Below, piece by piece: positions 30,718 through 54,225 of a DNA stretch of 64,000 nt. Made by a program: the position numbers and the translations under genes. This DNA comes from Tepidiforma thermophila (GTDB lineage: Bacteria > Chloroflexota > Dehalococcoidia > Tepidiformales > Tepidiformaceae). The DNA lies in NCBI RefSeq assembly GCF_002563855.1, contig NZ_PDJQ01000001.1, positions 2,418,001-2,482,000 of the forward strand. The letters run 5' to 3'. The notes below the pieces were generated by a model. The model was not told the DNA's origin. It worked only from the letters and a program-made list of their open reading frames with translations, and did no database searches. How positions within the stretch are numbered: the first letter of the stretch is position 1; each line of letters begins with the position of its first letter.

Positions 30718-32154
30718 ATGATGCGGCCCCGGAGCTGGCTGTTACTTTCAATGGGCGCGGTGCTCGTACCGCTGGTTGGGTTTGCAGCAATGAAGCTGGT
30801 CCCCGGCTGGGACCCAATGCTTGTGTACCCGGTCGAGCATTTCTGGGTGGTGTCGGCGGCCGCACTCCTCTCGGCGCTGGTTGGCACCGGCCTTGCGATG
30901 TCGGTGGAGAGCGTGCGGACAACCCGGACGGTGTACCTTGCGCTGGGATTCGTCGCCATCGCGATGGTGTTCGCGACGCATGGCCTCGGGACTCCGGGGC
31001 TGCTCATCCCGGAGACGGATTACCCGTACGCGGTCATCATTTCGGCGGGGCTGAGCCAGTTCCTGGGGGCGATCTTCATTGCGCTCAGCGTCGTGCCGCG
31101 GCGTTGGCCCGGGGGCACATTTGTCCAGCGGCATAGCACCGACGTCCTGGCGGCGGGCCTGGCAGTGCTGGCAGCTTACCTTGTGAGCATGGTGCTTCGG
31201 CCGGAGCTGTGGGATTTTGTGCCGAGGTCGCGGTCGTGGGATAGCGTGCTGGCAGGGACCACGATCGCTCTCCTGGGGATTGCCGGCTGGCGCTATTTCC
31301 AGGCCTGGCGGCTCACGGAACTGCCGGGCCAGCTGGCCATGGTGACCGCGCTGGGGCTGCTCGGGGTTGCGCAGCTTTCGATGTACTACAGCGACCTGTG
31401 GCAGCTCAGCTGGTGGCTGTATCACGGCCTCCTGCTCATGGCCTTCCTCGTGGTGATCGGGGGTTGGGCGATCGAGGCAGCGCGGGCGAAGAGCCTTATC
31501 GTGTTTGCGCGGGCCCTCGAGCTGCGGGACTCGCTGGATGAGGTCCGCTCGATTGCCGACGTGCGGGTGCTGGAGTCACTGGAGGAAGCGGTAGAGCGGA
31601 AGGACGCCTACACGCGGCACCATATGGGACGGGTCGCCGAGTTTGCCGAGGGGCTGGCGCGGGAGCTCAGGCTCCCGGAGCGGCAGGTGATGGTATGCGC
31701 GGCGGCCGGGAGGATTCACGACGTCGGCAAGATCACGGTCCCGGATGCGGTGCTTCTGAAGCCCGGCAAGCTGACGCCAGAGGAATTCGAGGTGATGAAG
31801 CACCACACGGTGCGGGGCGCGCACATTGCGAAGCTCCACCCCGAACTCGAGGGCCTGGCGGCGGTGATTCGGGCCCATCACGAACGCTTCGCAGGGGGCG
31901 GCTATCCCGACGGGCTCAAGGGGGAGCAGATTCCGATCGAGGCGAGGGTGGTGGCGGTCGGCGACACGTTCGATGCGCTGACATCGACGCGGGTGTATCG
32001 GCCGAAACGACCGGTATCTGAGGCGCTAGAAGAGCTCCGGCGGGTAGCGGGCACGCAGCTTGATCCGGATTGCGTGGAGGCGTTCATCCGGTGGCTGGAG
32101 CGCACCGGCCGCCTGGACGACTACACGCTCGGCGCATCGCGGCCGGCGGCGTAG
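30718..32154 (+). CDS. Membrane HD-GYP phosphodiesterase
   Basis: A 478-aa protein. Residues 1 to about 265 form roughly eight hydrophobic helices, a probable membrane sensory module of no named type that I can assign. The C-terminal HD-GYP domain has GRIHDVGKI (HD, about residue 337), HHTVRGA (about 362), RAHHERFAGGGYPDGLKGE (HHE...GYP, about 390) and VGDTFDALTS. HD-GYP domains hydrolyse cyclic di-GMP. It is the last chromosomal gene before the integrated element. Confidence 0.9.
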   Translation: MMRPRSWLLLSMGAVLVPLVGFAAMKLVPGWDPMLVYPVEHFWVVSAAALLSALVGTGLAMSVESVRTTRTVYLALGFVAIAMVFATHGLGTPGLLIPETDYPYAVIISAGLSQFLGAIFIALSVVPRRWPGGTFVQRHSTDVLAAGLAVLAAYLVSMVLRPELWDFVPRSRSWDSVLAGTTIALLGIAGWRYFQAWRLTELPGQLAMVTALGLLGVAQLSMYYSDLWQLSWWLYHGLLLMAFLVVIGGWAIEAARAKSLIVFARALELRDSLDEVRSIADVRVLESLEEAVERKDAYTRHHMGRVAEFAEGLARELRLPERQVMVCAAAGRIHDVGKITVPDAVLLKPGKLTPEEFEVMKHHTVRGAHIAKLHPELEGLAAVIRAHHERFAGGGYPDGLKGEQIPIEARVVAVGDTFDALTSTRVYRPKRPVSEALEELRRVAGTQLDPDCVEAFIRWLERTGRLDDYTLGASRPAA

Positions 32155-32177
32155 GGGCCGGGCGGGAGGAAAGCTGA

Positions 32178-32206
32178 TTGAAGCGGGCCGGCGGGGCGGG
32201 TATTCT
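32178..32206 (+). promoter_or_regulatory. Orphaned native promoter left of the integrated element
   Basis: TTGAAG (32178-32183), a 17-nt spacer and TATTCT (32201-32206) form a sigma-70-like promoter. It leads to a GGAGCAGGAG ribosome-binding site and an ATG at 32254, which is the first base of the 17-bp repeat. The resulting frame (MSDLRA...) now stops after 17 codons, because the element interrupts the gene whose body lies at 57415. Before integration this was probably that gene's promoter. Confidence 0.6.
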
Positions 32207-32253
32207 GCGGGCGGCCGGTGGTTGCCGGCGAGACTTTGGAGCAGGAGCCGGGG

Positions 32254-32270
32254 ATGTCCGATTTGCGGGC
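32254..32270 (+). repeat. attL core, 17-bp direct repeat
   Basis: ATGTCCGATTTGCGGGC, identical to 57415-57431 and in the same orientation. It contains the start codon and the next codons of the interrupted gene. Confidence 0.85.
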
Positions 32271-32332
32271 AGTCTTAACAAACGGCCGGTCAGTGAATCT
32301 GAACTAGACAATAAACATTCGCATCGGGGCGG

Positions 32333-32354
32333 TTTGACAGCAATTTGACAGCAA
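32333..32354 (+). repeat. Tandem 11-bp repeats near attL (candidate integrase arm sites)
   Basis: Two perfect head-to-tail copies of TTTGACAGCAA lie 62 bp inside the left end. Related tandem copies occur near the right end (57288-57309) in the same orientation. Paired short repeats flanking the core are typical of arm-type binding sites for tyrosine integrases. Confidence 0.55.
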
Positions 32355-32524
32355 CGAAGGAGAGAGATGAGGGGGCGGCCCGTGCGTGTCTTATGCAATG
32401 CAACGGCGCGCGGGGTGGGCGAATGAGTAGTGGTGCTCTGCCCCAAAATCTCCGGCCCAATCGGCCCAGCCGGCAGAGTGGCGTACGCAGGCGTGCGCTT
32501 CTGCATGTGTGCGTTCCCGGCGGT

Positions 32525-32562
32525 ACAAAAGCCTGGGGCCGGTCCCTTCTCGGAACCGGCCC
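32525..32562 (-). terminator. Terminator of the integrase gene
   Basis: On the minus strand, an 8-bp stem (32555-32562 with 32536-32543) is followed after 7 nt by a TTTT tract. It lies 41 nt beyond the integrase stop codon and would keep transcription from reaching the left attachment site. Confidence 0.55.
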
Positions 32563-32602
32563 AAGTATCGGCCCACACGAGCCCCGGCAAGCGGGCCTGC
32601 TG

Positions 32603-33736
32603 CTAGCTCATCAAGGCCTGAGCGATGCGGCGGACGGCCTTCTCGTCCGCGCCCGGCACAGCGTGAGCGTACGTGTCGAGGGTCATGGAGGGCCGCGAGT
32701 GCCCCAGCAGCGCCGAAGTCTCCCGCAGGCTGACGCCGTTTGCGAGGGCTACCGTCGCGGCGGTATGCCGCAGGTCATGGAATCGGTAGCGGGGCAGCCC
32801 TGCACGCTCGAGCAGCTCGTGGTACCACCTGAGGACGGACCGTTCGTTGAGGTAGTAGCCGTCAGCACGGCAGAAGACGAGGTCGAGTTCGCGCCAGGCC
32901 GGGCCGGCCCGGAGCCGCTCCTCCAGCTGGCGCTGACGGTGGGCGCGAAGCGCGTCGACGGCTTCCTGCGGGAGGGGAATGCGGCGGCGGCCGGAGGCCG
33001 ACTTGGGCGGCTCGATGCGGTAATCACCGGCAATCCTTACGAGTGTCCCTGACACCTGAAGCAATCCGTTATCCAGGTCGATGTCTCGCCAGCGCAGGGC
33101 GAGCAGCTCCCCCTTCCTCATCCCTGTCGTGAGCGCCAGCACGACCAGCGCCTCGAGGGAGTCTCCGCGGGCGGCCTGCAGGAGCCGTCGCGCCTCCTCA
33201 GGCAGCATGGCCCTTTCGGCCCTTGAGCGGGCTCCCCGCGGAGGGGCCAGGTTTTTGGCAATGTTGGCCGGCAGGTAACCCAGGCGGACGGCGTCCCCCA
33301 GGGCACGGTGGATGATGCGATGAAGCATTTGGACCGTGGCCGGAGAGTCCCCTTTCTCGAGCTGCTGGCGGTACAGCTTTTCTAGCTCGAGGGGGTGAAG
33401 TTTCGAGAGCTGGCGGTGGCCGATGTTCGGGAGAATGACGTTCTCAACCCGCTCCCGGTAGGTGCGGAGCGAGGACGGCTTCAGCTGTCGCTCTTTCATT
33501 GCCAGCCACTCGGTGAAGTACTGCTTCACGGTAAGCCGCTCACTTGAAGGCGGGAGCGCACCTTCACGCACCTGAGCCTGCATGGTTTTGAGCAGTTCGA
33601 TCGCCTCCTGCTTCGTCCTTGCGTACGAGTATTTCCGCCTGCCGTCGGGCAGGGTTTTCTGGGCGACCCATTTTTTGGCCCGCCGCGAATCGTTGCGTTT
33701 GTAGACCGAACCCTCACCGTTGAATCGGCGTCCCAT
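32603..33736 (-). CDS. int: Tyrosine integrase of the element
   Basis: A 377-aa site-specific recombinase. It has an N-terminal arm-binding domain (GEGSVYKRNDSRRAKKW), a core-binding SAM-like domain (VKQYFTEWLAMKE, about 68-160) and a catalytic domain. The active site is complete: Arg207 (TTGMRKGELL), Lys245, His320 and Arg323 (FHDLRHTAA), His346 (LLGHSRPS) and nucleophile Tyr356 (LDTYAHAV). It lies at the left end and reads toward attL. Its start overlaps the TubC-N-like gene by 23 bp. It should catalyse integration at, and with Xis excision from, the 17-bp core. Confidence 0.95.
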   Translation of the reverse strand: MGRRFNGEGSVYKRNDSRRAKKWVAQKTLPDGRRKYSYARTKQEAIELLKTMQAQVREGALPPSSERLTVKQYFTEWLAMKERQLKPSSLRTYRERVENVILPNIGHRQLSKLHPLELEKLYRQQLEKGDSPATVQMLHRIIHRALGDAVRLGYLPANIAKNLAPPRGARSRAERAMLPEEARRLLQAARGDSLEALVVLALTTGMRKGELLALRWRDIDLDNGLLQVSGTLVRIAGDYRIEPPKSASGRRRIPLPQEAVDALRAHRQRQLEERLRAGPAWRELDLVFCRADGYYLNERSVLRWYHELLERAGLPRYRFHDLRHTAATVALANGVSLRETSALLGHSRPSMTLDTYAHAVPGADEKAVRRIAQALMS

Positions 33737-34223
33737 TTCTTCCTCCTTCGCTCAAATCTCGCGCTTGTTCCCGGGCGGCTCGCTGCGGTCCACCGAGGTT
33801 GCAGTCACGGACAATCATCGCCATCGCCTTGCGGACTCCGCGGTCGGCGTGCGCCCGCAGGACGTGATGCTCGGTGGAACCGTCTGGGCGGACCACCTTT
33901 ACCAGGACCGAGTCTCGCCCGGGGTTGCGGCTGCAGAGCTCAGTGACGGCCCCGACCGCGGAAGCGGCCTCCTCCGCGGTGCGGGGCCGGAGCGTGCAGC
34001 GGCAGCGGGGCTGAAGCCCAAGTTCGACGGCCAGCCTCAAGAGATGCCCCCCCGGAGGCGGCAAGGTGCGGAGGCAGTCGATGACCTCCTGTTTGTGCGC
34101 TCTGAGCTCCTCGAGGAGAAGTTCTGCCTCGGGTGTATCCGGCACGCTGACATTCAGCTTCTGGCCGTCGGCCAGGGAGACCTTGAGGCCAGCCCCGTAG
34201 CAGCGTTCAAGCAGCTCCATCAC
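33714..34223 (-). CDS. TubC N-terminal docking-domain-like protein of the replication module
   Basis: A 169-aa protein. Its first 50 residues (LLERCYGAGLKVSLADGQK, then ELRAHKQEVIDCLR) resemble the TubC_N docking domain, often found beside primases on mobile elements. The rest is unrecognised, with a CRCTLRPRTAEEAASAV stretch and the basic, low-complexity end expected of a small accessory protein. It overlaps the Prim-Pol gene by 4 bp and the integrase by 23 bp, so the three are one transcriptional unit. A role in replication or partner docking is inference. Confidence 0.6.
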   Translation of the reverse strand: MMELLERCYGAGLKVSLADGQKLNVSVPDTPEAELLLEELRAHKQEVIDCLRTLPPPGGHLLRLAVELGLQPRCRCTLRPRTAEEAASAVGAVTELCSRNPGRDSVLVKVVRPDGSTEHHVLRAHADRGVRKAMAMIVRDCNLGGPQRAAREQARDLSEGGRNGTPIQR

Positions 34224-36724
34224 AGCTCGACTTCTCGGGAGTCCTCGAGGATTGCACCGATGGGGAGCACGAACACCTCCCGCCTGACCCCGCCGATGGT
34301 CTTGCGCACCCTGTTCTTACCTCGGCTCTCGTCAGCAGCGGCCAGGTACCCCCTCTGCTTGAGCGCGCAGCCGAGAGCGCGGCCGGTGTTCACGAAGGGC
34401 TCGCTTGCCGGGGCGGCCTGCTGGGCAGCCTGGAGAGCGGAATTGGGGTCGAGGTAGATGTGTTCGCCGTCGACCCAGCCGATACAGACGCCCTGGGGCC
34501 GCCATTCCCCGCTCATGCCCCCCTCGGTCTCGCGCCAGCCGAGCACTTCGGGCATTTTCCCCGGGCATTTTCCGGAGACATCGGCGATGTGAGCTTTCCC
34601 ACTACCAAGGGCCGAGCGGAGCAGGTCGAGGAACCGCCGCGCGGGGTCGCTCTCCCGCTGGGCGGATGCCTGGGTCGCAACGCCCTCCTCCAGCGCTGCG
34701 ACGGCTTGCTTCAAAAGTTCATCGGCCTGGGCCTGGGTGAGGGCGCCGGCCTGAACGCAGAACTGGAGAACAAACCGGACGGTGACCTCAAGGGCGGCCT
34801 GAGCTGATGCCGTTCGTCCATGCCGGCCTGCAGCAAGCTCGCTCCTGCGCTTTTCGAGCAGGTCTTTCGCCATCACGCGGATGGCCCCCCAGTCTGCGGC
34901 GAGCCATTCCAGCCAGCCGGCCATCCAGCGGGCGAGGGCTCCATCGGCCGCGAGCCTCTGAAGCTCTGTCAACCGGCCGAGGTCCACGTCGCTAGGCTCG
35001 ACCTCGCCCACCCAGGTGCGCGCTCGGAGGCTGTGGCCGGGCGGGATGTCTTCGCCCGTGCTGAGAATGAGGCAGCGAGGCGGCCTGCCGTTTTGGAGTC
35101 TGGCATCCCTGGTGAGCCGCTGCCGGCCTGCCCGGTTGCCGGCGCCGCGAAGCAGCTGCTCGGCGTGGCGATACAGCTGCGTCACGTCCTGCGGCGACCC
35201 GACCGGGACGAAGTCATCGACCACCAGCACGCAGTCTTTTGCCAAGAAGGCGAGCGTCTCGAGGGCGTTCGCGGTCGACCGCCAGCTGGCAGGCAGGTTC
35301 CGTGCGTTCATCCCGGGGCCATAGAACTGCTGAACGAGCGCAGCCAGCTCGGTCTTCCGAACTCCGCTTGGTCCTGCAAGGTGGACAGCGAAGTCAGGCT
35401 CGAAAAGGGTGGGCAGGAAGGCCGCAGCCAGGAGCGTCCAGCTGATGCGCGGCGGCGCGACGTCGAGCAGCCTGGGGAGCACCTCCTTGATGTCCCGGCG
35501 CAGCTCTTCGGGAGACGGGGGGTTCGGCAGCGCAAAACGCTGAAGGTCGGCTGGAGGCCTCGTCAGGACGCCCTCGGCGCCGACTGCGCCGGAGGCGTGC
35601 AGGAAGACTTGACGGCCGTCAATCTCGCGCCAGCCAAGGTGGGCATAGACCCGGACCTCGGGCACGTCTCCGGACAGCTGCTGGATGGCGGCACGGAGAT
35701 GGTCGCGGACCGAAGGACCCGGGAAGACGATGGCTGAGGCTCCGAGGCGCTCGAGGGGCCAGTCCATCTTCTGGAATTCCGCAGCGCTGAGCGTAAAGCT
35801 CTTCGCCGCCCCGTTGACGGCGGCCTCGATTTCGAACTCGCGCTGCTCAAGCTCGCCGTCGTCGATGATTAACTCTCTCCTGATGCGTGCCGAGAACGTG
35901 GCAAGCTGTTCGAGGTCCTGGGGGCCGCCGTCCCTGGTCCTCCGCCGCCACGTGCCCCTGTCGTCGGCGAAGTACTCGATGGGTGTTTTGGGGGCCGCGG
36001 CAGCCGCGTCCAAAGGGCCCTCAGCCGGGTAGCGGGCGATGGATTCCGCAATCCGGCGGACCTCATCATCGGGGAGCGGCGGGACGCAGCGCGCGGCATT
36101 GATGGCGAGCAGTTCCGCCTCAATCCCCGCCTGCAAAAGTCCCCGGCGGCGCAGCCGGCCGGCCAGGCTCGCCAGGCAGTCGTTCCGCTGGCCCTCTCGC
36201 ACCGGCCCGCCCTCCAGCTCGCGGTAGAGCGGCGCCCTGCGTGCGCCGGCGGCCTCGAGGAGCCACGCCGGAATAAGAGCCAGCGGCAGGCGTTCGGTGC
36301 TGGCCTCCACCGCGTACGGCCGGCCGCTGGGGTGGACCGACGGCGGGGCGACGACGTAGCCGCCGTCGCCCTTCAGGTCGACACCAGGGGCGAGCTTCCG
36401 CGAAGGGACGGGGCCGTCCGCGGCGAAGTAGTAGTGCGCTCCCCCGCCGCCGGTGAGCACGGTATAGGTCTCGGGATGGCCGCCGGCGTCGGTGGGTACG
36501 CCCCAGCCGCCGTGCTCAGCCAGCAGCCGCTCAAGGGCCACGTCGCCGCCGTTCCGGGGGTCGATATCCAGCACGGCGAGCCCCGAGGGGGCGCCGGTGG
36601 CGATGCCGACGTTCGCCTTCGGCCAGCGGCGCCACCAGGCCTCGATGGCGGCCGGGTCGGTGGTGGCGTCGTGGACGCCGTGCTCGGTCAGCGGCTCCTT
36701 GCCGCGCGGCTTGAGCGGGAGCAC
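34220..36724 (-). CDS. Prim-Pol primase-polymerase with helicase-type ATPase
   Basis: An 834-aa replication protein. It has an archaeo-eukaryotic Prim-Pol domain with catalytic DxD at 53-55 (AVLDIDPRNGG), HYYF at about 97 and GVDLKGDGGYVVAPPS. A PriCT-like helical region follows (about 180-232). The ATPase has Walker A AGPSGVRKTE (451-458) and Walker B CVLVVDDFVP (about 498). The GTG at 36724 is only the first usable codon in this frame. The conserved start of the domain (ALAYARRGWKVLPL) continues upstream without any ATG, GTG or TTG, so the real start is probably the ATG at 37236 with a frame change. Together these domains would prime and unwind the element's DNA. Confidence 0.82.
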   Translation of the reverse strand: MLPLKPRGKEPLTEHGVHDATTDPAAIEAWWRRWPKANVGIATGAPSGLAVLDIDPRNGGDVALERLLAEHGGWGVPTDAGGHPETYTVLTGGGGAHYYFAADGPVPSRKLAPGVDLKGDGGYVVAPPSVHPSGRPYAVEASTERLPLALIPAWLLEAAGARRAPLYRELEGGPVREGQRNDCLASLAGRLRRRGLLQAGIEAELLAINAARCVPPLPDDEVRRIAESIARYPAEGPLDAAAAAPKTPIEYFADDRGTWRRRTRDGGPQDLEQLATFSARIRRELIIDDGELEQREFEIEAAVNGAAKSFTLSAAEFQKMDWPLERLGASAIVFPGPSVRDHLRAAIQQLSGDVPEVRVYAHLGWREIDGRQVFLHASGAVGAEGVLTRPPADLQRFALPNPPSPEELRRDIKEVLPRLLDVAPPRISWTLLAAAFLPTLFEPDFAVHLAGPSGVRKTELAALVQQFYGPGMNARNLPASWRSTANALETLAFLAKDCVLVVDDFVPVGSPQDVTQLYRHAEQLLRGAGNRAGRQRLTRDARLQNGRPPRCLILSTGEDIPPGHSLRARTWVGEVEPSDVDLGRLTELQRLAADGALARWMAGWLEWLAADWGAIRVMAKDLLEKRRSELAAGRHGRTASAQAALEVTVRFVLQFCVQAGALTQAQADELLKQAVAALEEGVATQASAQRESDPARRFLDLLRSALGSGKAHIADVSGKCPGKMPEVLGWRETEGGMSGEWRPQGVCIGWVDGEHIYLDPNSALQAAQQAAPASEPFVNTGRALGCALKQRGYLAAADESRGKNRVRKTIGGVRREVFVLPIGAILEDSREVEL

Positions 36725-36942
36725 CTTCCAGCCGCGCCGGGCGTAGGCGAGGGCAGCCTCGCGGCAGGCAGCGTGACCGCCCGGTTCGGCACCTGCCGGG
36801 ACGGCGCCCCGGTCTACCCGGCCCTCGGGCTCCGGCGCGGCAACCCCGGCCGGGAGGGCAGGTGCGGGCTCATGCAGGCCAGGATGCGGGTCATCTGCGG
36901 CACCGGAGAGGTCCTCGCCGGGGGCAGGACTGTCCTGCGGCC

Positions 36943-37236
36943 CTATCGGCCAGCGGCCCGGGGTGCATCCCCGGCCGCCGGGCCGGCCCCGACGTTGGCG
37001 GCGCTGGTCGCGGCGGCTCGCCAGGATGTCGCGGACCTGGACCCCTTCCGGATGAGCAAGCCTTCGGTTCTCGGAATCATCGGCGGCACTCTGTCCCGGT
37101 GCGGTGGCCTGGGGGCCGCTGGGGGCTCGCTCGTCGCCGGCCGGTCGCGCTCCTCAGACAGCGGCCGCCCTGCACCTTCTACGGTGCTGTTGTGCCCGAC
37201 ATTGATGGCGCTCCCAAGAGTGGTTGATTGATTCAT
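36943..37236 (-). CDS. N-terminal piece probably belonging to the Prim-Pol gene
   Basis: A 97-codon frame (MNQSTTLGSAINVGHN...) starting with a textbook AGGAGG ribosome-binding site. It ends in a different frame from the Prim-Pol gene, which is open but startless from about 37160 down to 36724. The two frames overlap across two C5 runs (minus strand; 37111-37115 and 37121-37125 on the plus strand). A one-base indel or a -1 shift there would join them into a protein of about 1000 aa. The N-terminal piece itself is low complexity. It could also be a separate small protein. Confidence 0.5.
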   Translation of the reverse strand: MNQSTTLGSAINVGHNSTVEGAGRPLSEERDRPATSEPPAAPRPPHRDRVPPMIPRTEGLLIRKGSRSATSWRAAATSAANVGAGPAAGDAPRAAGR

Positions 37237-38478: not shown

Positions 38479-41400
38479 TCACGAAGCCGGCTGGGGGGCA
38501 GGATGTGCGACGGAGGGGTCGGCCGGGGGAGGGTCGAGGAGTGAGGTGTAAGGGGCGCGGCATGCTTCGGCAGCGGCCATCCGGTCGTAGGCCTCGAGGA
38601 CGAGGCGGGCGGTGCGGTATTCGCCGAAGCGCTCTTCGTCGTGGCGTTTGACGATGGGGAACTGGTCCAGGATGTAGCTCACGGCATCGCGCGGCGCCGG
38701 GAAGAGGGCACGGAGCTCCGGGCTTGCCTGGGCCTGCCATTCGTCCTCGCTGCCGAGATAGAGGCGGAAGAAGCAGGCATCGAGCTCGGCGCGGAGGCGG
38801 GCACGGCGTTCGGGGTCGTAGCGGAAGGGCGGGCCGTGGTAGCCGAGGTCGCGGGCGAAGGGGGCCAGGTCCCAGGCGGTATAGGTGAGCTCGAGGATAC
38901 GGGGGCGGAGCCAGTCGGCGATCGAATATGAGTCAAGCCACGGGCAAACGTTGGCCAACAATTCTGCTGTGATGGCAGGAAGCTGCTGAAAGATGAAGTA
39001 GTTGAGGTTCATGCCTCCCACCTTTTGGCGGGCGACGAAGTCCAGCACCTGGGCGGACAGGATTGTGCTGAGTAAGGGTGCAGCATCCTCGGCTGCGAGC
39101 GCCAACGGGAAGTTGTTGCCGACGGCGACGCGGGGGATGACGGCGGAGATAACGGTGCGCTCGTTGGTGGCGTTGGTGATATTCCGCCAGCCGAGCAGCC
39201 AGCCGCGCTCCCAGCGGCCGGCGAGGCGGGATTCGACTTCGCGCTCGTGCACCCAGTAGCGGGGAAGGACGGTGTAGCCGGGGTCGCACTTCGCGGCGTC
39301 GGGGACGTCTTCGGTGGCGCCGGAGTCGTTGTAGGTGGCCCAGCGATGGTCGAACTGGTGGACCAGCTTGGCCTCGTAGAGGGGGAGGTAGCGCTCGTCG
39401 CCGCGGACGAAGAGATTGCCGGCGAGGCGGAAGCCGGCGTCCTCGAGCTGTTCGCGGGTGCGGAAGAGGCCGGAGTCAGTGTTCATCATGAACATGAGCA
39501 AACCCTTGAAGCCCCACGGGTTGCCGGCATCGCCCCTGGTTTCATCGACCAGGACGGGGACACGGCGGTAGATGTGGCGGGTGAGCTCGGCGTCGCGCCT
39601 GGTGCGGAAGACCGGCGCGGTGCGGGTATTGGGGTTAAGGAGGCGGAAGTCCTCGGGGGTGAGGGTAAAGCGACGCTCGGGGTCGGCGAGGTCGGAGATG
39701 TCGTGGCAGAAGAAGGCGAACTCGGCGGCTGCCGCGGGACGGGCCTGCCCCGTGAGCGTGAGAATGGCGAACTTCATCCGGCTGTCAACCGCCGGGAACA
39801 ACTTTCTCCGGTTCTCGAAATCGTAGAGGCTGGCGAGCTGGCGACGTTCCACGATGTGAGCGAAAAAGTTCTGGGTGAACGCGTCAGTAGCAATACCTGT
39901 TGGAACAATTAATCCCGCATATCCGGCCGCATCACAAAGACGCAAAACATTCTCGGCAAACAAAGGTGCAAGATTGATTCTGCCGCGACTCGTCAGAGGG
40001 AATAGATCAGAGCTATGTACGAATGATTGCAAGCCTTGTATGTAATGAATGGCACCGATGTATTGCTTGAAGAGGCTATGGTCTTCTTCCGAGAGCTTGG
40101 CCAGCATTCGCTTACGAACGGCCATGCTAGGAGCTTCGGCGATGTCCGGCCGGGTCGATGCAAAGAACTCGCGGTCGTCGAGCTGAACCTGCTCCCAGGG
40201 CGGGTTGCCAAGGATGACGTCGAAGCCCCCAGACCAGCCTGCCTCGGGGTTGTCGGAGGTACCGTTGACGCTGCGGAACACCTCGGGGAACTCGAGGTGC
40301 CAGTGGAAGAAGCCGAGTTCGCGGGCGAGGTGCTGGACCTGGTCGCGGAGGGCAGCCGGCACGAGCTCAGGGTTGCGGGCGAGCCGACGGAGGACGTCGG
40401 TGGTGATGGCCTCGGCCCCTTTCTGCTTTGGAAGGAAGAAGGCAGCGCACCAGGCGTCGGCGACCAGCCTGGCGTGCTGATAGGCCTGGCCGTGGATGAG
40501 TTCGTGGAAGGCGGATTCCTTGGCTGCAAGCTGGTCGGGGGTATCGTCGGGGGCCTCGGCGAGGCGCCTGGCTGCCTCGGTGAGCTCGCGGACGTCACTG
40601 GAGAGGGCGTCATCGAAGGTGAGCTGGAGGGCTCCATGCTGGAGCCGTTTGCGCTCCTCACGGTTGCGCTTTTTGAGGGCGCGGGCGGTCTCGCGGTCAT
40701 CAAGGGCGTGGGGTTCGTAGGCTTCGTCGGGGATGCCGGAGGCGAGGAGGGCCGGGGTGACGCCGATGAGGCTGTTGCCGCGCCTGATGTGGGCATCGAG
40801 GAAGGAGAGCGGGCGGCCAGGCTCGAGGGCCTCGAGCCAGAGGGAGACCTTACAGAGTTCGACGGCCATCTCGTTGACGTCGACGGCGTAGATGCAGTGA
40901 GAGACGACGTCGCGGAGGGCGTGACGAACCGCTTCAGGGGAGGGTTCGGGGTCCCCGGTGCGGACTGCGGCGAGCCGGCGAGCGATGCGGTGGGCCGCTG
41001 CGACGAGGAAGTGCCCGGAGCCTGAGGCCGGGTCGAGGACCTTGAGGGAGAGGATGGCGGCCTCGGGGTTGCTGGCACGGGCTCGTTCCTCGAGGACTGG
41101 CTCGAGGGCGGTATCGAGCAGGGCCTGGACGAGCTGGGGAGGGGTGTAGTAGCTGCCGGAGGTTTTCCGTTCGTGCCCGGCCTCGACGCGAAGCTCGAAG
41201 GTGCCCTGGTCGATATTAAGTTCGGGCCGGAGTTCGAGGAGGGACTCGTAGACGCCGCCGAGCTCTTCGCTTCCGAGGTTGCGGTAGTCGACCGCGCGGA
41301 CGGTCCCTCCGTCGCTGACGCGGGCCAGGTGGCCAACTGCCCGGAGGAGAACGTCGTTGGAGAGGCTGCAGGCTTCGAGGTGGGGGATGGCGCGTGGGGA

Positions 41401-42530
41401 CCAGAGGAAGCTGCCGAGCGGAGGGAGGGCGAGCCCAGGTTCGCCGGCGTGGGCATCGAGGGCGCGCATGACGACCTTCAGGCCTTCCCAGAGGTCGCCG
41501 TGGCGGGGTGAGACACGTCGAACGGAGAGCCGGCGGAGGCGCTGGGTAGAGTAGAACCTGGTGTAGCGGTCACGGGCCTGGGGGTCGGCGTCGGACGCGA
41601 AGAGGACTTCACGGTCTTCGGCGGCGAAGAGGAAGATGAGGCGGTAGACGAGCCGAAGGAGCTGGCGGTAGTAGTCCTGGCGGTCGAGGGTTCCTGAGCG
41701 AAGTGCTTCGCGAAGGGCGGTGTTGGATGGATGGGCGAGGAATCCGGAACCGAGCGCCTGGAGGGCATGTTCGACGCCCTGGCGGAGGGCCTCGAGGGCG
41801 CGGACGCCCTGCTCTCGGGCTGATTCGCGCCAGCGTTCGAGGATGCAGGATTCCGGGGGCTCGCCTTCGAGACGAGACTGGTGACAGGTGAGCCAGAGGA
41901 GGGCGAAGTCGGCATAGCTGTCGCCATCGAACATGGCGGCCAGGTCGAACTCAACGTAGGACTGGCGGGTCAGGGAGGTGGAGTCGCGGAGGAGGCGAAG
42001 CGCCTGGCCGTTGGATACGAAGCCGTAGAGCCGCTCTTCTGAGCGGTTGAGGAGCTCCTGGACGAGGCCGTGAGGACTCTGGGAGGCCGCACCTGCCAGG
42101 CCTTTGGTGCGGCGGTCGAGGTCGACGCCCCAGCCGAGGAGATGAATGGGGACTGGGCCCCAGCTGTGGGAGACGGGGTAGGAGCGGCCGTCAATCTCGA
42201 TGGCCCTGGACGTGGGCAGCCTGCCGTAGCCCAGCTCGGAGAAGAGGGGGAGCAGCCAGCGCTCCCGGGTCAGCGTGGTGAACGACTCGCCCTGCCCGGG
42301 CTGGCTTTGCTGGCGTTCGAGTTCATCCCTGAATGCGCGCCAGGTGCCGACGAGCCTGTTCCAGGAGCGAGTGATGGCCTCGCCGAGGCGGTCGCCGGGG
42401 GAGAGGTGGTAGTCGCCGGGCTCGAGGCCACCGAGGGACTGGTCGTTGGCAGCGATTCGTGCGAGGAGGTCTGGAGGCAGGATGCCGCCCTCGGTGCGGA
42501 TGGTTGAGAAGAGCTGGTTGCGGGCGTTGC

Positions 42531-42534
<4 letters not shown>
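38479..42534 (-). CDS. Eco57I-type adenine-specific DNA methyltransferase (DISARM DrmMI-like)
   Basis: A 1351-aa methyltransferase. The N-terminal 450 residues are of the large RM-methylase type. The catalytic core then has GSYYTPP (about 460), SAM-binding motif I DPASGSGHFLVAAA (501-514), DVNEMAVELCKVSLWLEAL (about 553) and N6-adenine motif IV NPPWE (777-781). A long C-terminal target-recognition-like region follows. Last gene of the operon; its ATG overlaps the helicase stop by 4 bp. In class 1 DISARM a similar enzyme marks self DNA. A patch around 39,890-40,060 is much AT-richer than the rest of the gene. An orphan or type IIG role is less likely given the helicase partners. Confidence 0.88.
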
Positions 42535-45380
<2,846 letters not shown>

Positions 45381-48300
45381 TTTTGGAACACCCCTTCCCA
45401 CGTGTCCTGATCGCTGCCAAAGCGGACCACGGTCCAGCCTTCGTCCTCAAGGCGACGCTCAGCCTCTCGGTCTCTGGCGGCCACGTCAGGGTACTGGTGA
45501 ACCGGTCCATCAACGAAGACTGCCGTGAGGCTGTCATCGTAGGTGAAGTCAGGCCTCGCATCTGCTGCGGGGATATGTTTCTGGGCCCTGGTTGGCAGGG
45601 TCAGCCCAAGTTCATCAACAAAGCGCAGCCACTGGCGTTCGAGCTCGGTCTGGCAAAGGTTCAGGAGGGCCTGGAGGTGCTCGTGGCGAGGGGTGGCGAC
45701 GGGCGATGGCTCGGCCCTGGCCCCGGCCAAGTCGAGGAGAAAGTCACGGACGCACTGCCGGTCAAGGAGTCTGTGGTCGGGCTGGTTGGTGTAGCTCATG
45801 AGGCAGTCGTAGCAGGCTGCCTCGCAGTTCTCGCTGGCATGTGGGGCTTTTCCGAGGTCTCTGCCGTCATCGGGGTCAAAGTGGCAAATCTCGAGGGCGC
45901 GGCGGGCGACCCGGCTCATTGCTTGAGTATCAGCGACAAGCCTTCGGAGGACGCCGGCTCCGCCTTCGGCGGCTTCGTAGAAGAGCAGTAGATTGCGCTT
46001 CTCGCGGCGGGGCAGCGGTTCGACAGCAAGCTCGGATTCCTCGAGCTGGAACTCTACCTGTATGGCCCGCTTCAATGCAGCCGCCAGTGAGGCCATGAAC
46101 TGGACATCCTGGGGGGTCACAGGTTCAAACAGAAGTGCGTTGCGGCGGTCTTCTACGTAGGGCACCACCCTCTGGCGAGGCCGTTCCTGCTTTTCCTCTG
46201 CATCATCGGACTCATCTTCGCGCCGCTGCCAGGTGCCGCGCTCAGGGTCAATCCAGAACCCCACTCCAGCCGTGCTCTTGCGCCGTCTCCAGCCGAGGTT
46301 AATCCGCCAGAGGGTCGCGGCGCCGCTGTAGGTAAGGGTTGCGAGTTTCTCCTCGTCCTTGCGCACCTCAGCAATCCTGGCCCGAGTAGCACCGGCCTCC
46401 TCAGCGAAGCGGATGCCGGTCTGCACGTCGTAGCCAACCCGAACGCGCTCCTCCTCGTCGGAGGTAATCCGCTCGCGGCGAACCGTGGAGACATTCTCAA
46501 GGCGGAAAAGGCTATCGATGGGGGCGTCGAGGAGGCGGTCACAGCGCTCGCAAAGGTCAGGTCCGGGGGGTTCGGCAATAAGGTGGAGGTAGCCGCACTC
46601 GCTGCACTGCTTCGCCGAGCTGGTGATGAGCTTTCCGTCAAGAGTTCTGCTCGGCGGCAGAAGGACCCGGCTGATAACGTACCTAGCCCCTTCGTGGTAG
46701 ACGATGCCGCGGGGCCCGAACTCCTCAATAGCCAGGAACCTTGGGCGTGAGAGAAAGTCGTCTTGCCCCTTGGTGCCGCGCCGGCCGGGGATAAATGCGG
46801 AGAGCGGGAGCCGGGGGAAGTTGTACCCGGGCAGGAACCCCTCGCTGGCGAAGTAGCGATAGCTGTAGAAATCTGACTGGTATGTTCGGTTTCCAGCAGT
46901 ATCAGCGCGGAGCAGATCAAGCTGGGATTCGGCCTCGGCCCTGAGCCGCTTGGCACGGTCACGGTCCTGCCTGGAGCGTGAGGCGTCCCCGATGATGCGA
47001 TTCTGTTCCTCTCTGGTGTTGAGCGCTGCCCGGTAGAGGGAGCGCCAGCGGTCACAGGCGGCGTCGAAGCTCGTGAGGGCCCTGCTGAGGACTTCATCGA
47101 GCCAGCCTTCGTGGTACCAGTCCGCTTCCTTAAGGCCAGGAACCGTGTCCAGGATGCTGGCACACCTCGCATTCGCACGCTCCCTGGCCGCGGGATTGGC
47201 CAGAGCGTTTCTCAGTGAGGCCTGGAGTTCCAGGGAAGGCGCTTCGCCGGACACGTCGAGGACATCGGCCATCGACGACCCAAGGTCCTGGCCGGTTTCG
47301 GCCAACCAGACGGCGTGGACGTGAGCCTTGAGGAGGTCCTCATTGGCAAGGTCAAGCTGGGGAGGCAACACCTGGCCGGCGACCATTTCCACGGGATGAT
47401 TGAAGAAGTACTGGTCGTGAGAGCTGGTAGCTGAGCAGTAGGTAAAGACCAGGGCTGGCTGGCCCCGCCTGCCGGCACGGCCGCTGCGCTGGGCATAGTT
47501 GGCCGGGGTTGGGGGAACATTACGGAGATTCACCACATTGAGTTCGGCGATGTCGACCCCAAGCTCCATGGTTGGCGAACAGAAAAGCACGGGAAGCCTG
47601 CCTTCCCTGAAAGCCTTTTCGCGGAATTCTCGGACTCCTGACTGGACCTGGGCGGTGTGCTCCCCGGCCATAAATCCGACCATCGTGTCCGCAACCTGCC
47701 GATAAAGGTCGACAAAATACCGATTTGCGCCCCTGGGGGTCTCATTTAAGAGGGTCACCCGCAGGGGGTCATGCATGGGTCTGGTGCCATCGCCGGCCAA
47801 CCAAACCATCGAAGCGGCTGAGAGCTGGTAGCCGGGAGCAGCTTCATCCCGGTCATCGACGACGTCAACCAGCCCGCCGATGCGAAGGACCTTAAATAGG
47901 TCCGCAATGACCGCCTCGACTTCCCTTTGACTGAGAGCTGGACGACCTGAGCTGCGGTTGAGCCTTCTCAGGTACTGCCCGAACAGGCTCCTCGACGAGA
48001 TAAAGACGTGCCTCCAGTCCTTATCGTCGCCGTTGCGGCGGGGGCCGGGGTAGGCTACTGATGCGCTCTTGAGCTTTTCGTCTTCGTCGAAAGCCCAAGG
48101 GGCTGCCAGGCGGGAGTCAGACCTCTGTTTTATCCGCTCCAGATAGCCGGACTCGAGGTAGTTGACGCTAATGGCCAGCTCGCGGCGGAGAAGGTCGAGA
48201 AGTACCCGCGATACTTCCTCTCGCTCGTTGGGAGTCGCCCCGGCGAGCGCGGGGTGAAGGCTCTGCCAGTCCCTCTCGCTGGAGCAGAGTTCCGCCAAGG

Positions 48301-50591
48301 AGAGGTACTCGAACCTCAAAAGCCCGCACTGCTCAAGATTTGGTGCGGTGAGCCGCCAGCCTCGCTCGAGGTCGCGATAGAGGCGATAGCCGAGGACGTC
48401 CCGGAGCGCCTGGGCAGCCTCGTCTCTCGCGGCAAACCCCTTCTCGGGGTCCTTTGCATACTGTTCATACGGTAAGGAAAGGGCCTTGAAGACAGCCTGG
48501 GTTAGTTCGTCATACCTCAGGCCTTGGGGCCCGGCCTGAGAGACCGCCCTGTACAGCGCTGAGCGAAGCAGGCCAACCTGAACAAAGTCGTTGAAGTGTC
48601 CTGCCTGGAGCGAGGCGTCCTGCCTGTTATCGGTGAAGCTCAGAACCTTCCTGGCTTCCTGCGGAAGGTCGGCGGCATCCTTAAGGCGGCGCAGTGCTTC
48701 GGCGACCAGGATAGTCGTCGCAGAAGCCCTGCCACCCTCACCGATGGTCGCGAGGCGGGCGTAGTCCTGCCTTTCCTTCCCCTCGTAGGACACCCCGCAT
48801 CGGAGACAGAACGGAATTGGCGAGGGAATGACCAGGACTTCGCGGCCGTCTGGTGAGGGCTCTCCGTTCGCCCCCACGCGGCGAGCGCGGGGGAGCTTGC
48901 TCCGCCGGGCTCTCAGGACGTCTCCAGTCGAAGGGTCGACCCAGGAGTCAGGAATGCGCTCTCGGTACGCATCTGGTGCTTCATCAGGGTCAGGCAGGTA
49001 CAGGTAAGCAGCACCCTCGCCTCCTGACCGAGGGTCCCTAGGTTCGAACGTGGTCGGTGACACATCGCCGGACTGGAACGAGACATTGTCGTTCGCCCCC
49101 TGGGCCGTTTCGACAACCGAGTAGTACTCCTGGCCACATTCTCGACAAAACGCGAGAGGGAAGAGCAGCCTTGACCGGTCGCCAGGAACATACTGCTGCT
49201 CGCGAAGGGTCAGATACCGGGATTCCGGGGGTTCGAGCGAGGCGTAGACGGTATCGCCCCTGGTGAAGAACTGATGCAACCGAAAGGCAAACATGGGCTG
49301 GCCCGTCTCTGGATTGAGGACACGGAACCCGGAAGAGAGGATGGCCTCGATCGCTTGTGCACATCGTTCGGGGTCGAGGCCTGTGAGCTCGGCCAGCTCG
49401 GCTGCGAGGCCGCCGTCCTTACGAATCGTCCGGGGCTTGGCCCTCCGCAAGTGCTGGCCCTTTTGCTCGATTCCCAGTTTTTCTTCAACCCAGCAGGCAA
49501 GGGCGTTTCTCCTCAGTTCCTCGGCTGAGGCAGGGACCGACCCGGATTCGACGGCGCGACGAAGCTCAAGGACGAATGCGGGGTCCGACATGTCCCGTTG
49601 GTCGGTGACGCGTTGGAGGGTTTCGAGGATGACGCTGTTGGGCCCGACGGTGGTCCCAAAGAGAAGCGTTGCGACTTCGGCGACACGCTCGCGCTGTTGC
49701 TTGAGGTCGTCGACACCTGCGAGGGTTGCCGAAGTTCCGATGCACTGCAGTTGGCGAGCTTCGCAGGCCTCCCGGACCCGCCTCACGAGCATGGCCACGT
49801 CGGCGCCCTGCCTCCCGCGGTAGGTGTGGAGCTCGTCCAGAACCAGGAATCTGAGGCCGCGTGCAGCCTGGACAAGGGGCCGCTCGAAGGGCCGGGTCAG
49901 GATGAGCTCCAGCATGACATAGTTGGTGAGCAGGATATCTGGAGCATTGGCGACAATTTCCTGTCGCTCTTCGTCCGACTCCTGACCCGTGTACCTCTTG
50001 TAACGGACGGGCCCCTGACCTCCAGGGAACCCAAGCTCGAGGAACTTATGGAGTTCGCCAGCCTGGCTGTTGGCCAGGGCGTTCATGGGGTACACGATGA
50101 TAGCCCGGATACCTTTACCGGGGCCTTCTCGCAAGATGGCATCCACGATTGGAATGAGGTAGGCAAGGCTCTTGCCTGAGCCGGTGCCGCTGGTGAGCAC
50201 GTAGCTTTCGCTGCGCCTTGCGACCTCTATAGCTTCGATTTGGTGCTGATAGAGCCTCAGTGGCCTGCCAACAGGGTCATGCTCGCTTTTATCCTTGCGG
50301 AAGATGCGGCGGCACTCCTCGTGAAGCAGGCCACGGTCCACGAGCGTGTCAATGTCTGCCGGCGTTTTGAAGCCAGGGTTTAGCTGGACCAGTGCTTCAG
50401 GCCAGAGCAGCCCTTCGCTGAGGGCCTGGTCAACGACTGCCCGAATTCGGTCATCCCGGATAGTCAGGAAGCTCTCTACGAAGTCGCGATACTCCTTGAC
50501 CAGGCTATTCCGGAGGGAGAAGACGTCCATGGCTGCTCCAGGTGACGGAAAAGTCTGAGCCCGAACGAACAGTACCGGGATTCTAGCGGCA

Positions 50592-50623
50592 AACAGGGCA
50601 GAGGGCAGCGTGCCTGCCCTGTT
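50592..50623. repeat. Perfect 10-bp inverted repeat upstream of the defence operon
   Basis: AACAGGGCAG (50592-50601) pairs with CTGCCCTGTT (50614-50623) across a 12-nt loop. It lies 62 nt before the giant helicase start and could be an operator, a leader hairpin or an old terminator. No promoter hexamers close by are convincing. Confidence 0.5.
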
Positions 50624-52405
50624 CAGACCCCCGGGCGACACTGAGGACCCCAGCCGGAGTCAGTTCATCGCACCTTACTGGAGTTCCCCGAGAGGGCTGG
50701 GCGAGGAGAGCCGGCAGGGACGCGCCGGGAGCTAGCAGGCCTGCCCGGGGGCCGAGCATTCCCTGACGAGGTGGCCGAGGCAGTGGGTTTTCACCGGTCC
50801 GCTGGCCCAGGCGCAAGCCTTCGCCTTGGTCGACGATTGGGAGACCCGCAGCGTCGAGGGCCGGCATCGACCCAATGGCCGAAGGGGCATCGGCTGGCCA
50901 CCAGAGTCGAGTTATCGAGATAGAGCCCGTGGACAGCGATGTTGTCCGGACTTTCTCGTACACACTGTTGAGCTGTCGATATGGGCTGGGCATGGCATTT
51001 CGGGGGAAGCCGGCGCCGCTGGCTGGCGACCGCTGACCGGTTCGGATGCTCGAGGGAAGCCATGCACTGCCCGCCGGCATCAGGGGCGGCTTGGCAGGGA
51101 CGTGTCGCGCCACATTGGGTCCAGCCACCCGGCTGCTCGTCTACTCAAAGCAAGTGCCGGCAGAGCCGCCGCCGGCTGAACGCGAGATGAACTGCGCACC
51201 ACCAAGGAAGGTCTCCACGCTTCGCCAGGGCCAAGGCCTCGGCCGCAGCGAACCGGCCAGACGCCTTGGCCCGCCATCCACGGTGGCATAGAAACAGAAC
51301 TTTTGGCCACTTGAGCCTCCCTGGCGAAGCGGCCTGCGGATTAGTCGGCTGAGAGGGCAGGGGAACCCTTCGCCACAAAGGGTTTGGTTCGACAGCCACT
51401 CATGGAGGCCAGCCCGGTCGGCTTCGAAACGTTCAGCAGCGCTCGGCCAGGGCACAGCCGACACCGGGTGCTGGACTCGGTTTCTGGGGCTGGCGGATAC
51501 CGGGCCGGAAGCACCGCAGCCGCGAGAATGGGCGGACAGCGGCAGCGGCACGCGAATACACCCCGGAAGTGGAGCCAGATGGCTGGCATCCAGCCGTCTG
51601 CGACAGGGGGAAACTAAACCTTGCGTACGGCGAGCCGTCAGACCATGACTCAACCGCCATCGCCAGGGCGGCCACCGAAAGGGTGAATGGCTCCGCCGAC
51701 CGGCAACGGTACGCCCCGGACATCGGCCTTCGGCTGCCGGTGAGGAGCCGCGGCCCTTTGCAAAGAGCCGCGTCACGCCGCAGCGGTCGGGCAATCGGTC
51801 GCCTGCCGGTCGTCAGCGACGCCCAGCCGGCCGGATGCTCGGCTGCGGTTCGGCCATGGGGCAGGGAGAGTGGAACGAACTGCAGGCGCCGTTGGGGGTG
51901 CAACGGCCGATCGTGGCGGCCGGAAGCTCCTGGTTGCCGCAATCGACCCGGTCTTCTGTCGGCTCTTTTGTGGAATGCGCTGCCGTGGTTACCGCACCTC
52001 ACGGGGGTACTGAAGGTAAATGGAGAGGCGGGGCTGAAGCGTGACACAGCTCCCCAAAAAGAGCCCACTGCGCTGCGTCCGGGCAACGAAGCGGGGCCGC
52101 GGGGTGGTAACTGCTACCGGTAACAAGGTTCTCCTAGCGGTGGAGTCAAATTTGCGCCCAGGCAGGAGGCAAGCCGCCCGCCCCGGGCGCGGCCCCTGGC
52201 GCAGACGAAACAAGATGGCCAACAACCTCAAACATGCGTCAGAGACCTAACCGGCCTTCAGAGAGGCACCAGCCCAGTAATCCCCGGCGAATTGCGCAAA
52301 GCCTCTCTTGGACCGGCGAGCTGCCCAAGGGGACCGGGGGAGGGGGCTTCCCCTTAAGCCCCATCGTCGGACGCGTGGTACCCCCTCAGCCGTGTTCGAA
52401 CCCCC
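50624..52405. other. 1.8-kb gene-free region of the element
   Basis: No credible gene is seen. Overlapping frames of 60-220 codons exist in all six frames, with Arg/Pro/Ser/Gly-rich products, no conserved motifs, no ribosome-binding sites and no codon-position bias. It might be decayed sequence, a regulatory region or a structured RNA. No transposase remnant or tandem repeat was recognised. Confidence 0.5.
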
Positions 52406-52981
52406 TCAGGCCTCCTCTTCGTCGGCTTCTTCCTCATCCCATTCGGCAGCAGACTTTTCATCCCACGCCTTCGATCCCCTTGACCTGAGACGCTCTAAAA
52501 CCTCGCTGACAATCGGTTCGTTGCCCACGACCGTATATTCGCCGACCGGCAGGCAGTCTACGGCTTCACGCCAGTCGAGAGAGTCAGAAGCTTCGCCGAA
52601 GTCCATGTAACTCCCGTCGTCCAAAACCACCCCAATCTTCTCCGCATCGCACCAACTAGAGTTGTAGAACCTTCCTCGGTAAACTGTCGCTTCCACGTAA
52701 GGCGAGTAGTCGTCTCCGTTGTGCAGACGCCACCTAGCGACATCCAGAGAACAGTCCGACATTTCTCTCATCCGACCACCAATGACCTCAGCTCTAACAA
52801 AAGGGTCGGGATGGAAGCAAGTATCAAGCACGGTTTCGAATCCGAATTCATCGATGAGACGCAGAGCTACCTTCTTAGGATCGTCTGAATGAAGCAACCA
52901 GCCAAAATCGTCAGCGATAAGCTCGGCCAATTTTTCAGGAGTCATGCTGCTTTTAAGGTCTTCGGTTCTCTCGCCTGACAT
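52406..52981 (-). CDS. Hypothetical acidic protein of the element
   Basis: A 191-aa protein of unknown function. It is mostly soluble, acidic and ends in a run of Glu/Asp (EWDEEEADEEEA). The first half is helical (MTPEKLAELIADDFGWLL, VALRLIDEFGFETVLDTCF), with a HEAT-like PDPFVRAEVI motif. The second half is strand-rich (VYRGRFYNSSWC, IGVVLDDGSYMDFG). Codon use is much less GC-biased than the neighbours, which marks it as recently acquired. GGGGAA precedes the ATG. It could be an accessory or immunity-type protein, but nothing proves it. Confidence 0.75.
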   Translation of the reverse strand: MSGERTEDLKSSMTPEKLAELIADDFGWLLHSDDPKKVALRLIDEFGFETVLDTCFHPDPFVRAEVIGGRMREMSDCSLDVARWRLHNGDDYSPYVEATVYRGRFYNSSWCDAEKIGVVLDDGSYMDFGEASDSLDWREAVDCLPVGEYTVVGNEPIVSEVLERLRSRGSKAWDEKSAAEWDEEEADEEEA

Positions 52982-54225
52982 ATCCGTATTCCCCTAGAGC
53001 TGGGCTACGACATTTCCCTTGACCGACTTTTGCAGTGTCGTCGTAGTCCGCGGCCACTTATCTTGCCGCAGCCGGCACCGCCGACGCAAGCCCATTCCAC
53101 GGTTCTAGAGTGGGTGGACGGCACAGTGACACACACCTGACACGTTTACCTGCCGGAAGGCATACCGGCATCAACACCAAAGCAGCCACAGATCTCCGGC
53201 CATTGAGCAGCCCGAGCTGTGGATACCTGGCGCGGAGACACTGGACGACGCACGTGGACCGGACTCACTGAGGGACGCGATCCTGTATGCGACAAATTCG
53301 CGTCATGCTTCTGCGTTTTCGGCAGCAGCAGGCTCCCTGCACGCCGTGCTCCGGATTGCGCGGACGACCGAGGTTGAACAGAGCTTGCTGGCAACGCAGC
53401 GGGTCCCGGGAACCTGATTCGAAGTTGAAAAGCGACCGGGCCGTGCCCCTTGCGCGACGCGCCCAGCGTCGATGCCCAGCCGTTCGACAGGCGCCGTGGA
53501 CAGTACAGACTCCTCTGGCGGCTGGCAACACGGCATTTGCGGGTGCCCACTGCCGCACCGGGCCGCGTGCCGGCTGCCCTCGCGGCTGCAGCGCCAGGGT
53601 TCCCATGTCGGCGCCGGCGGCACCGTGCGCCCCTCGGCTACGACGCCGGGACCCTCGGTACGGGGAAGGCCTTGCAGGCTGCGCACCGCCGGTTTGACCC
53701 TGCATGCGCCAGGCCAACCGCCTTCCCCTTGGCCCGAAACGCAATCGGCAGGATTCAGCTCCGCATCGCTCGGGGCGGCCAGTCCGGCAAGCAGCGACAT
53801 CCGGGGCCAGACAGGGGTCGAGCCGGCTGCAACCCATCAGCCACCAACGGTCCCCGGCCTCACATTCGCCAACGCAACGGGGCGAGTCGGCCGTCCTCGC
53901 GGACATCAGGCTAAGGGCACGGATCGGCTTCGCTTGCTATCGCTCGCCCGGCGTAAGGCTCCTGAATCGGACGAGGCTGGTGGGGCAACCGAAACCCACC
54001 GCAGGCGAAGGGAGGGCCTATCCGAGGACAGGTCGAGATGTGCAGAGCCGGCCAGGCAGCAGGCCAATGAGGTGCGGCACCCCCTGACCAGCTCTGGGAC
54101 GGCCAGAGCCAAGTCCCGCGCCGCATTTCAGGCTGCACAGGAGCCCTTTGAACACGTAAGCCCGAAAGGCAGCCCGGTGGCATACGGGCATTGCACAGCC
54201 TGCAACCGTTCGGGCCCCGTTAAGC
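52982..54225. other. 1.2-kb gene-free region of the element
   Basis: Nothing supportable is seen here. The longest frame, a plus-strand frame reaching 54329, encodes a Ser/Arg/Pro/Gly/Ala-rich product without motifs and runs antisense through the small gene at 54226. The GC content is high but without third-position bias. Confidence 0.5.

Follow-up and report, generated by a model that had tools for sequence, protein, structure and literature searches.

The Prim-Pol replicase gene of an integrated island in Tepidiforma thermophila is probably a single gene with a net one-base frame break

Integrated islands that carry a tyrosine integrase, a small helix-turn-helix (HTH) or excisionase-like gene and a Prim-Pol gene are known as AICEs in actinobacteria (PMC3218068) and as ICETh2 in Thermus thermophilus (PMC9751324). 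We analyzed an island with the same kinds of genes in a 64,000 nt stretch of the Tepidiforma thermophila genome (contig NZ_PDJQ01000001.1, positions 2,418,001 to 2,482,000; hereafter the window, in whose coordinates positions are given unless labeled otherwise). In contrast to AICEs and ICETh2, the start codon and the Prim-Pol copy here lie in different frames. Our interpretation, to which we assign a probability of about 0.76, is that one replication gene, belonging to an integrated mobile island, occupies the locus, starts at ATG 37236 and carries a net one-base break caused by a recent indel or an assembly error. In gene order, the island would consist of the HTH/excisionase-like gene, the Prim-Pol-PriCT_1-DUF927 replicase, a 169-codon gene and the integrase, adjoined by a defence-like cluster. 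The net one-base difference would lie in the N-terminal extension of the replicase (the linker), which is about 150 residues long, rich in Pro, Ala and Gly, and poorly conserved.

The replicase is encoded on the minus strand, on which registers are defined as position mod 3. The register-1 open frame (34220-37153) runs for 977 codons without a stop and encodes the linker followed by Prim-Pol, PriCT_1 and DUF927. Between its opening at 37153 and the GTG at 36724-36722, the sole usual start codon of the Prim-Pol frame, 143 codons pass without ATG, GTG or TTG, and the Prim-Pol residues ALAYARRGWK are encoded immediately upstream of this GTG. The register-0 frame begins at ATG 37236 and reaches TAG at 36945-36943 after 97 codons; this would be the opening of the replicase reading frame. 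The strong ribosome-binding site GGAAGGAGG (37251-37243) lies six bases ahead of ATG 37236. Both frames are open together across 37152-36943, and one step back by a single base anywhere in this overlap unites them. The first-pass annotation had thus correctly described the domain residues upstream of the only usable start, the more than 140 codons lacking a start, the neighboring register that opens behind a ribosome-binding site, and the overlap spanning two runs of five C (C5 tracts), where a one-base shift joins the frames. These tracts are located at 37125-37121 and 37115-37111, the second with an in-frame C_CCC tetramer at codon 37113. The 210 nt overlap contains two C5 runs against an expectation of 0.33 for one strand of that length, so the tracts by themselves are only mildly unusual; runs of at least five C or G occur at 3.16 per kb across 620 kb of the genome.

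The search for orthologues covered 99 related genomes. A syntenic relative was found in a genome of the same genus, G004, in which the HTH gene, the replicase, the 169-codon gene and the integrase follow in this order. The G004 replicase is a single 994-codon frame (L006:1249-4233) with an extension of about 150 residues ahead of the domain; the comparison that the first-pass annotation had proposed, for one continuous N-terminus among homologues, thus found a continuous frame. Its ATG is aligned with ATG 37236, and its ribosome-binding site, AAGGAGAGAATCATG, is at the place aligned with GGAAGGAGG of the window. Register 0 at 37236-37129 matches the start of the G004 protein with 12 identities in 36 residues (local score 40, reached by 3 of 1000 shuffles), and register 1 at 36946-36776 matches the later part of the G004 extension with a score of 124, which none of 1000 shuffles attained. 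Because the two registers match the beginning and the later part of one extension, they appear to be the two ends of one gene. On the strength of these alignments, the two frames are one gene with one intended N-terminus and a net one-base frame difference. Within the family, G004 alone among 37 other genomes has the orthologue, and its copy is unbroken. Searches of viral, plasmid, phage and genome collections returned distant homologues only, the examined loci of which had no long extension like that of G004, and the exact start-site pattern had no match in viral contigs. Remote Prim-Pol matches were seen in G009.

A separate gene at 36943-37236 was considered and rejected: the frame has no Pfam match, and in G004 the stretch aligned with it forms the 5′ portion of the continuous replicase gene. 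An independent product from this frame, which would have spoken for two genes, has no counterpart as a separate gene in G004. We also rejected a plus-strand gene of 299 codons at 36332-37231, which would lie antisense to codons conserved in Prim-Pol. In three of four segments its codon score is positive or near zero (+0.5 to +12.3 nats); this notwithstanding, the candidate was set aside because the minus strand has the domain and the conservation.

The domain content of the register-1 frame is clear. Prim-Pol (PF09250) spans 36754-36263 with an E-value of 1.5e-46 (159.2 bits vs the curated cut-off of 22.8), PriCT_1 (PF08708) spans 36208-36029 with 5.4e-15 (55.2 bits vs 21.1), and DUF927 (PF06048), a region that we take to be helicase-like, spans 35755-35117 with 4.9e-9. 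The Pfam match to Prim-Pol begins at profile position 1 with the upstream residues but at position 12 of 158 from GTG 36724. A complete domain is therefore not obtainable from a usual start in the same frame, since profile positions 1-11 are lost. The domain was modeled with AlphaFold2 from six sequences (mean predicted local distance difference test score, pLDDT, 83; residue 1 at 36817); in the model, helix alpha-1 comprises residues 15-27 and strand beta-1 residues 32-35. As GTG 36724 corresponds to residue 32, the first residue of strand beta-1, a start there would delete the predicted helix alpha-1. We examined 30 homologues, some of whose loci are near duplicates; all 29 whose alignment covers the first 12 residues of the domain have an in-frame start codon at or before these residues, which the window copy lacks, and none begins exactly at the position of GTG 36724. 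The GTG was thus rejected as the true start. The annotated gene start should be moved from GTG 36724 to ATG 37236, and the N-terminal helix of Prim-Pol should be retained. According to Foldseek, the nearest solved folds to the model are the primase-polymerases of pRN1 (ORF904) and phage NrS-1 (E-values 4e-8 to 4e-6), with moderate query-normalised TM-scores of 0.33-0.43. The predicted fold is thus like these enzymes but the sequence is not, as phmmer matched no chain among the solved structures at E 0.1 or better.

To locate the frame difference, we compared the window with G004 by several methods. In the MAFFT alignment, the first C5 tract carries a gap of one base. With a pair hidden Markov model (pair-HMM) and four parameter sets, the likeliest phase is register 0 as far as about 37130, and from 36936 onward all four sets give register 1 a probability of at least 0.97. 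At 37116-37070, register 1 has a probability of 0.64-0.97 in three sets and of 0.23-0.49 in the fourth. Codon usage favors register 0 at 37236-37129 (-3.8 vs -20.9 and -28.2 nats) and puts register 1 slightly above register 0 at 37120-36946 (-3.1 vs -7.2). The linker shows further length differences from G004, and conservation climbs sharply at about 36940. These sequence comparisons suggest that 37136-37116, the area of the first C tract, is most likely the best single place for the net one-base difference. The earlier proposal of a one-base shift at the C tracts therefore holds insofar as this area is the likeliest by alignment and pair-HMM, but the position is not uniquely resolved.

Selection on the replicase was assessed against G004. 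From the domain on, the ratio of non-synonymous to synonymous substitution rates (dN/dS) is 0.33. Elsewhere on the island, the ratio is 0.51 for the 169-codon gene, above that of the replicase, 0.27 for the HTH gene, 0.23 for the methylase-like gene, 0.17 for the integrase and 0.13-0.14 for the helicase-like genes. With an intact paralogous replicase of the same genome (L002:1435-4053, at G000:2629403, 2629 kb), which has no long N-terminal extension, as the outgroup, 49 amino acid changes were assigned to the window copy and 78 to the G004 copy (chi2 6.62). As the window copy has accumulated fewer changes than the G004 copy, it would not be an old pseudogene. Of the features expected for a pseudogene, intact relatives and a frame broken here were found, and relaxed selection was not. 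The lack of visible decay implies that the break is recent, or an error, or that the product is still made.

Several observations weigh against a single break that silences the gene. The stretch 37060-36950 is too diverged for the phase to be placed, and several indels are possible there. A scan of joining positions peaks at 37131 (score 237) with a nearly equal second peak at 36948-36945 (234), and a model of linker composition splits 37120-36946, with register 1 preferred first and register 0 for 37033-36946. The extension is known from one orthologue only, so that the ancestral state is not fixed. Finally, the absence of relaxation in the Prim-Pol part is compatible with continued expression of the gene by some means.

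Antonov et al., 2013 (PMC3711429) assign frame breaks that are singletons with intact relatives to indels or sequencing errors. The break in the window is such a singleton, since the sole family orthologue is unbroken. As in the singleton frameshifted genes of that study, adjacent registers match one continuous homologue and the shift site is not conserved; unlike in those genes, the break here affects no domain but a rapidly evolving linker, which is why profile searches miss the N-terminal piece. An ordinary event of this class, either a recent indel or a sequence error, is likelier than internal initiation or frameshifting. Of the causes listed in the first-pass annotation, the best fit is a sequencing error or a recent inactivating indel, with no support for programmed -1 frameshifting or phase variation.

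A real and recent indel that inactivated the replicase is the leading single explanation, at a little under even odds. With the sequence as assembled, a ribosome initiating at ATG 37236 would meet TAG 36945-36943 after 97 codons, so that hardly any replicase, if any, would be produced. The island would keep an intact integrase and defence-like genes without autonomous replication, and the paralogue might help in trans. The singleton nature of the break and the other length differences in the linker are consistent with this, and since the paralogue is full-length and intact, the loss may be tolerated. Such elements decay elsewhere in the same genome, where a 43-residue Prim-Pol relic lies at L003:1502-1630 (G000:816 kb) with an integrase-looking fragment, read by eye, behind it. 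The window copy shows no excess of amino acid changes, so the event would need to be recent. A real break would make the island a carrier of defence genes whose replicase is silenced.

A sequence or assembly error, meaning that the assembly carries a wrong number of bases in the linker of a gene as uninterrupted as that of G004, is possible though the less probable of the two ordinary events. It would account for a downstream frame that is intact over 977 codons, constrained and free of signs of decay, for the intact orthologue, and for a phase change that maps near a C tract. As a control for frame breaks, 773 G004 frames were compared with 620 kb of this genome, in which 161 of them had orthologues. 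Across these (60,229 codons, median identity 95.4%) we detected one frame break, which involves several substitutions and length differences and no homopolymer change; the reverse comparison (153 orthologues) likewise gave one. Matches with in-frame stops numbered 8 in the first comparison and 11 in the reverse, and some of these may be antisense frames. The assembly is thus not rich in frame errors, and the other compared island genes match G004 along their full length at the protein level, both of which count against an error. The control is blind to fast-evolving ends, and missed the present break because the N-terminal piece is too weakly conserved; it does not choose between an error and a recent mutation.

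Internal initiation in register 1 is improbable. In this scenario, the upstream frame is a leader, and translation begins downstream, for example by re-initiation at ATA 36946 or at GTG 36724. The register-1 ATA overlaps the register-0 stop as ATAG (36946-36943), which resembles the overlaps of coupled genes and might act as a weak re-initiation site; as a start codon ATA is poor, and no binding site precedes it. The sharp rise of conservation at about 36940 speaks for this scenario, as does a GTG codon that G004 carries at the position aligned with ATA 36946. The G004 frame is open throughout from an ATG with a ribosome-binding site, however, a start at GTG 36724 would remove helix alpha-1 and Pfam positions 1-11, and none of the 29 homologues lacks an upstream start. 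A GC-rich hairpin lies at 36984-36950, just ahead of the register-0 stop; the 91 nt stretch that contains it folds a little better than its shuffles (z -1.45), of which 13 in 200 fold equally well.

Frameshifting by -1 at the C tracts, whether programmed or tolerated, would yield a little replicase and a 97-residue N-terminal product, and is quite improbable. It is consistent with the continued constraint on Prim-Pol and with two tetramers in register 0, C_CCA at 37122 and C_CCC at 37113; according to one study, C_CC.C is one of six tetramers that give 0.26-5.6% frameshifting in E. coli (PMC4066793). The overlap, however, contains single-codon tetramers only and no slippery X_XXY_YYZ heptamer, and an in-frame C_CCC is common, being present in 246 of 339 open reading frames of at least 200 codons. 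The RNA that follows each of the two tracts folds no better than shuffled sequence (z 0.50 and 1.16, by a tool blind to pseudoknots), and the shift site is not conserved, as the sole orthologue reads straight through. A literature search combining programmed ribosomal frameshifting, primase and mobile genetic elements found no paper. Low-level slippage may occur at C_CCC. It is hardly probable that the replicase is kept out of frame so that rare -1 slippage at C_CCA/C_CCC, or weak re-initiation at ATAG, sets a low amount of Prim-Pol. The coding sequence would then be preserved through selection for low expression, a form of expression control unexpected for a Prim-Pol element. Phase variation, which normally needs longer tracts, is unlikely because those at the shift site are only five bases long, with no long mononucleotide or short tandem repeat there.

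The neighboring genes agree with the assignment of the replicase to an integrated island, in that Prim-Pol and PriCT_1, in this order and above their cut-offs, are linked to an integrase and an excisionase-like gene. The HTH_17 gene (37453-37265, minus strand, ATG 37453; PF12728, E 1.3e-16) lies upstream of the replicase here and in G004. The 169-codon gene (34223-33714, minus strand) overlaps the end of the replicase and is 61.5% identical to its syntenic counterpart in G004; it has a weak match to the TubC_N docking domain (E 0.005 here; 1e-5, at the cut-off, in G004). The tyrosine integrase (33736-32603, minus strand; PF00589, E 6.2e-27) is 82.5% identical to that of G004. The defence-like cluster (38479-50530) comprises a type IIG/DrmMI-like methylase (38479-42534), a DpdE/DrmD-like helicase (42534-45401; 815 bits with one DpdE model) and a DruE/BrxHI-like DEAD helicase (45350-50530); these are mixed components of several named systems, below the NCBIfam cut-offs.

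No attachment-site (att) repeat of 15 bases was found between 32150-32610 and 50400-53000, and no tRNA was found in the window. In G004, the flanks of the island locus (32252-52324) enclose about 27 kb of other DNA, and the island itself is found at another chromosomal place, some 300 kb away; the site is an apparent integration hotspot. In the paralogue at L002:1435-4053, a second small HTH-like frame, read by eye, overlaps the ATG of the replicase.

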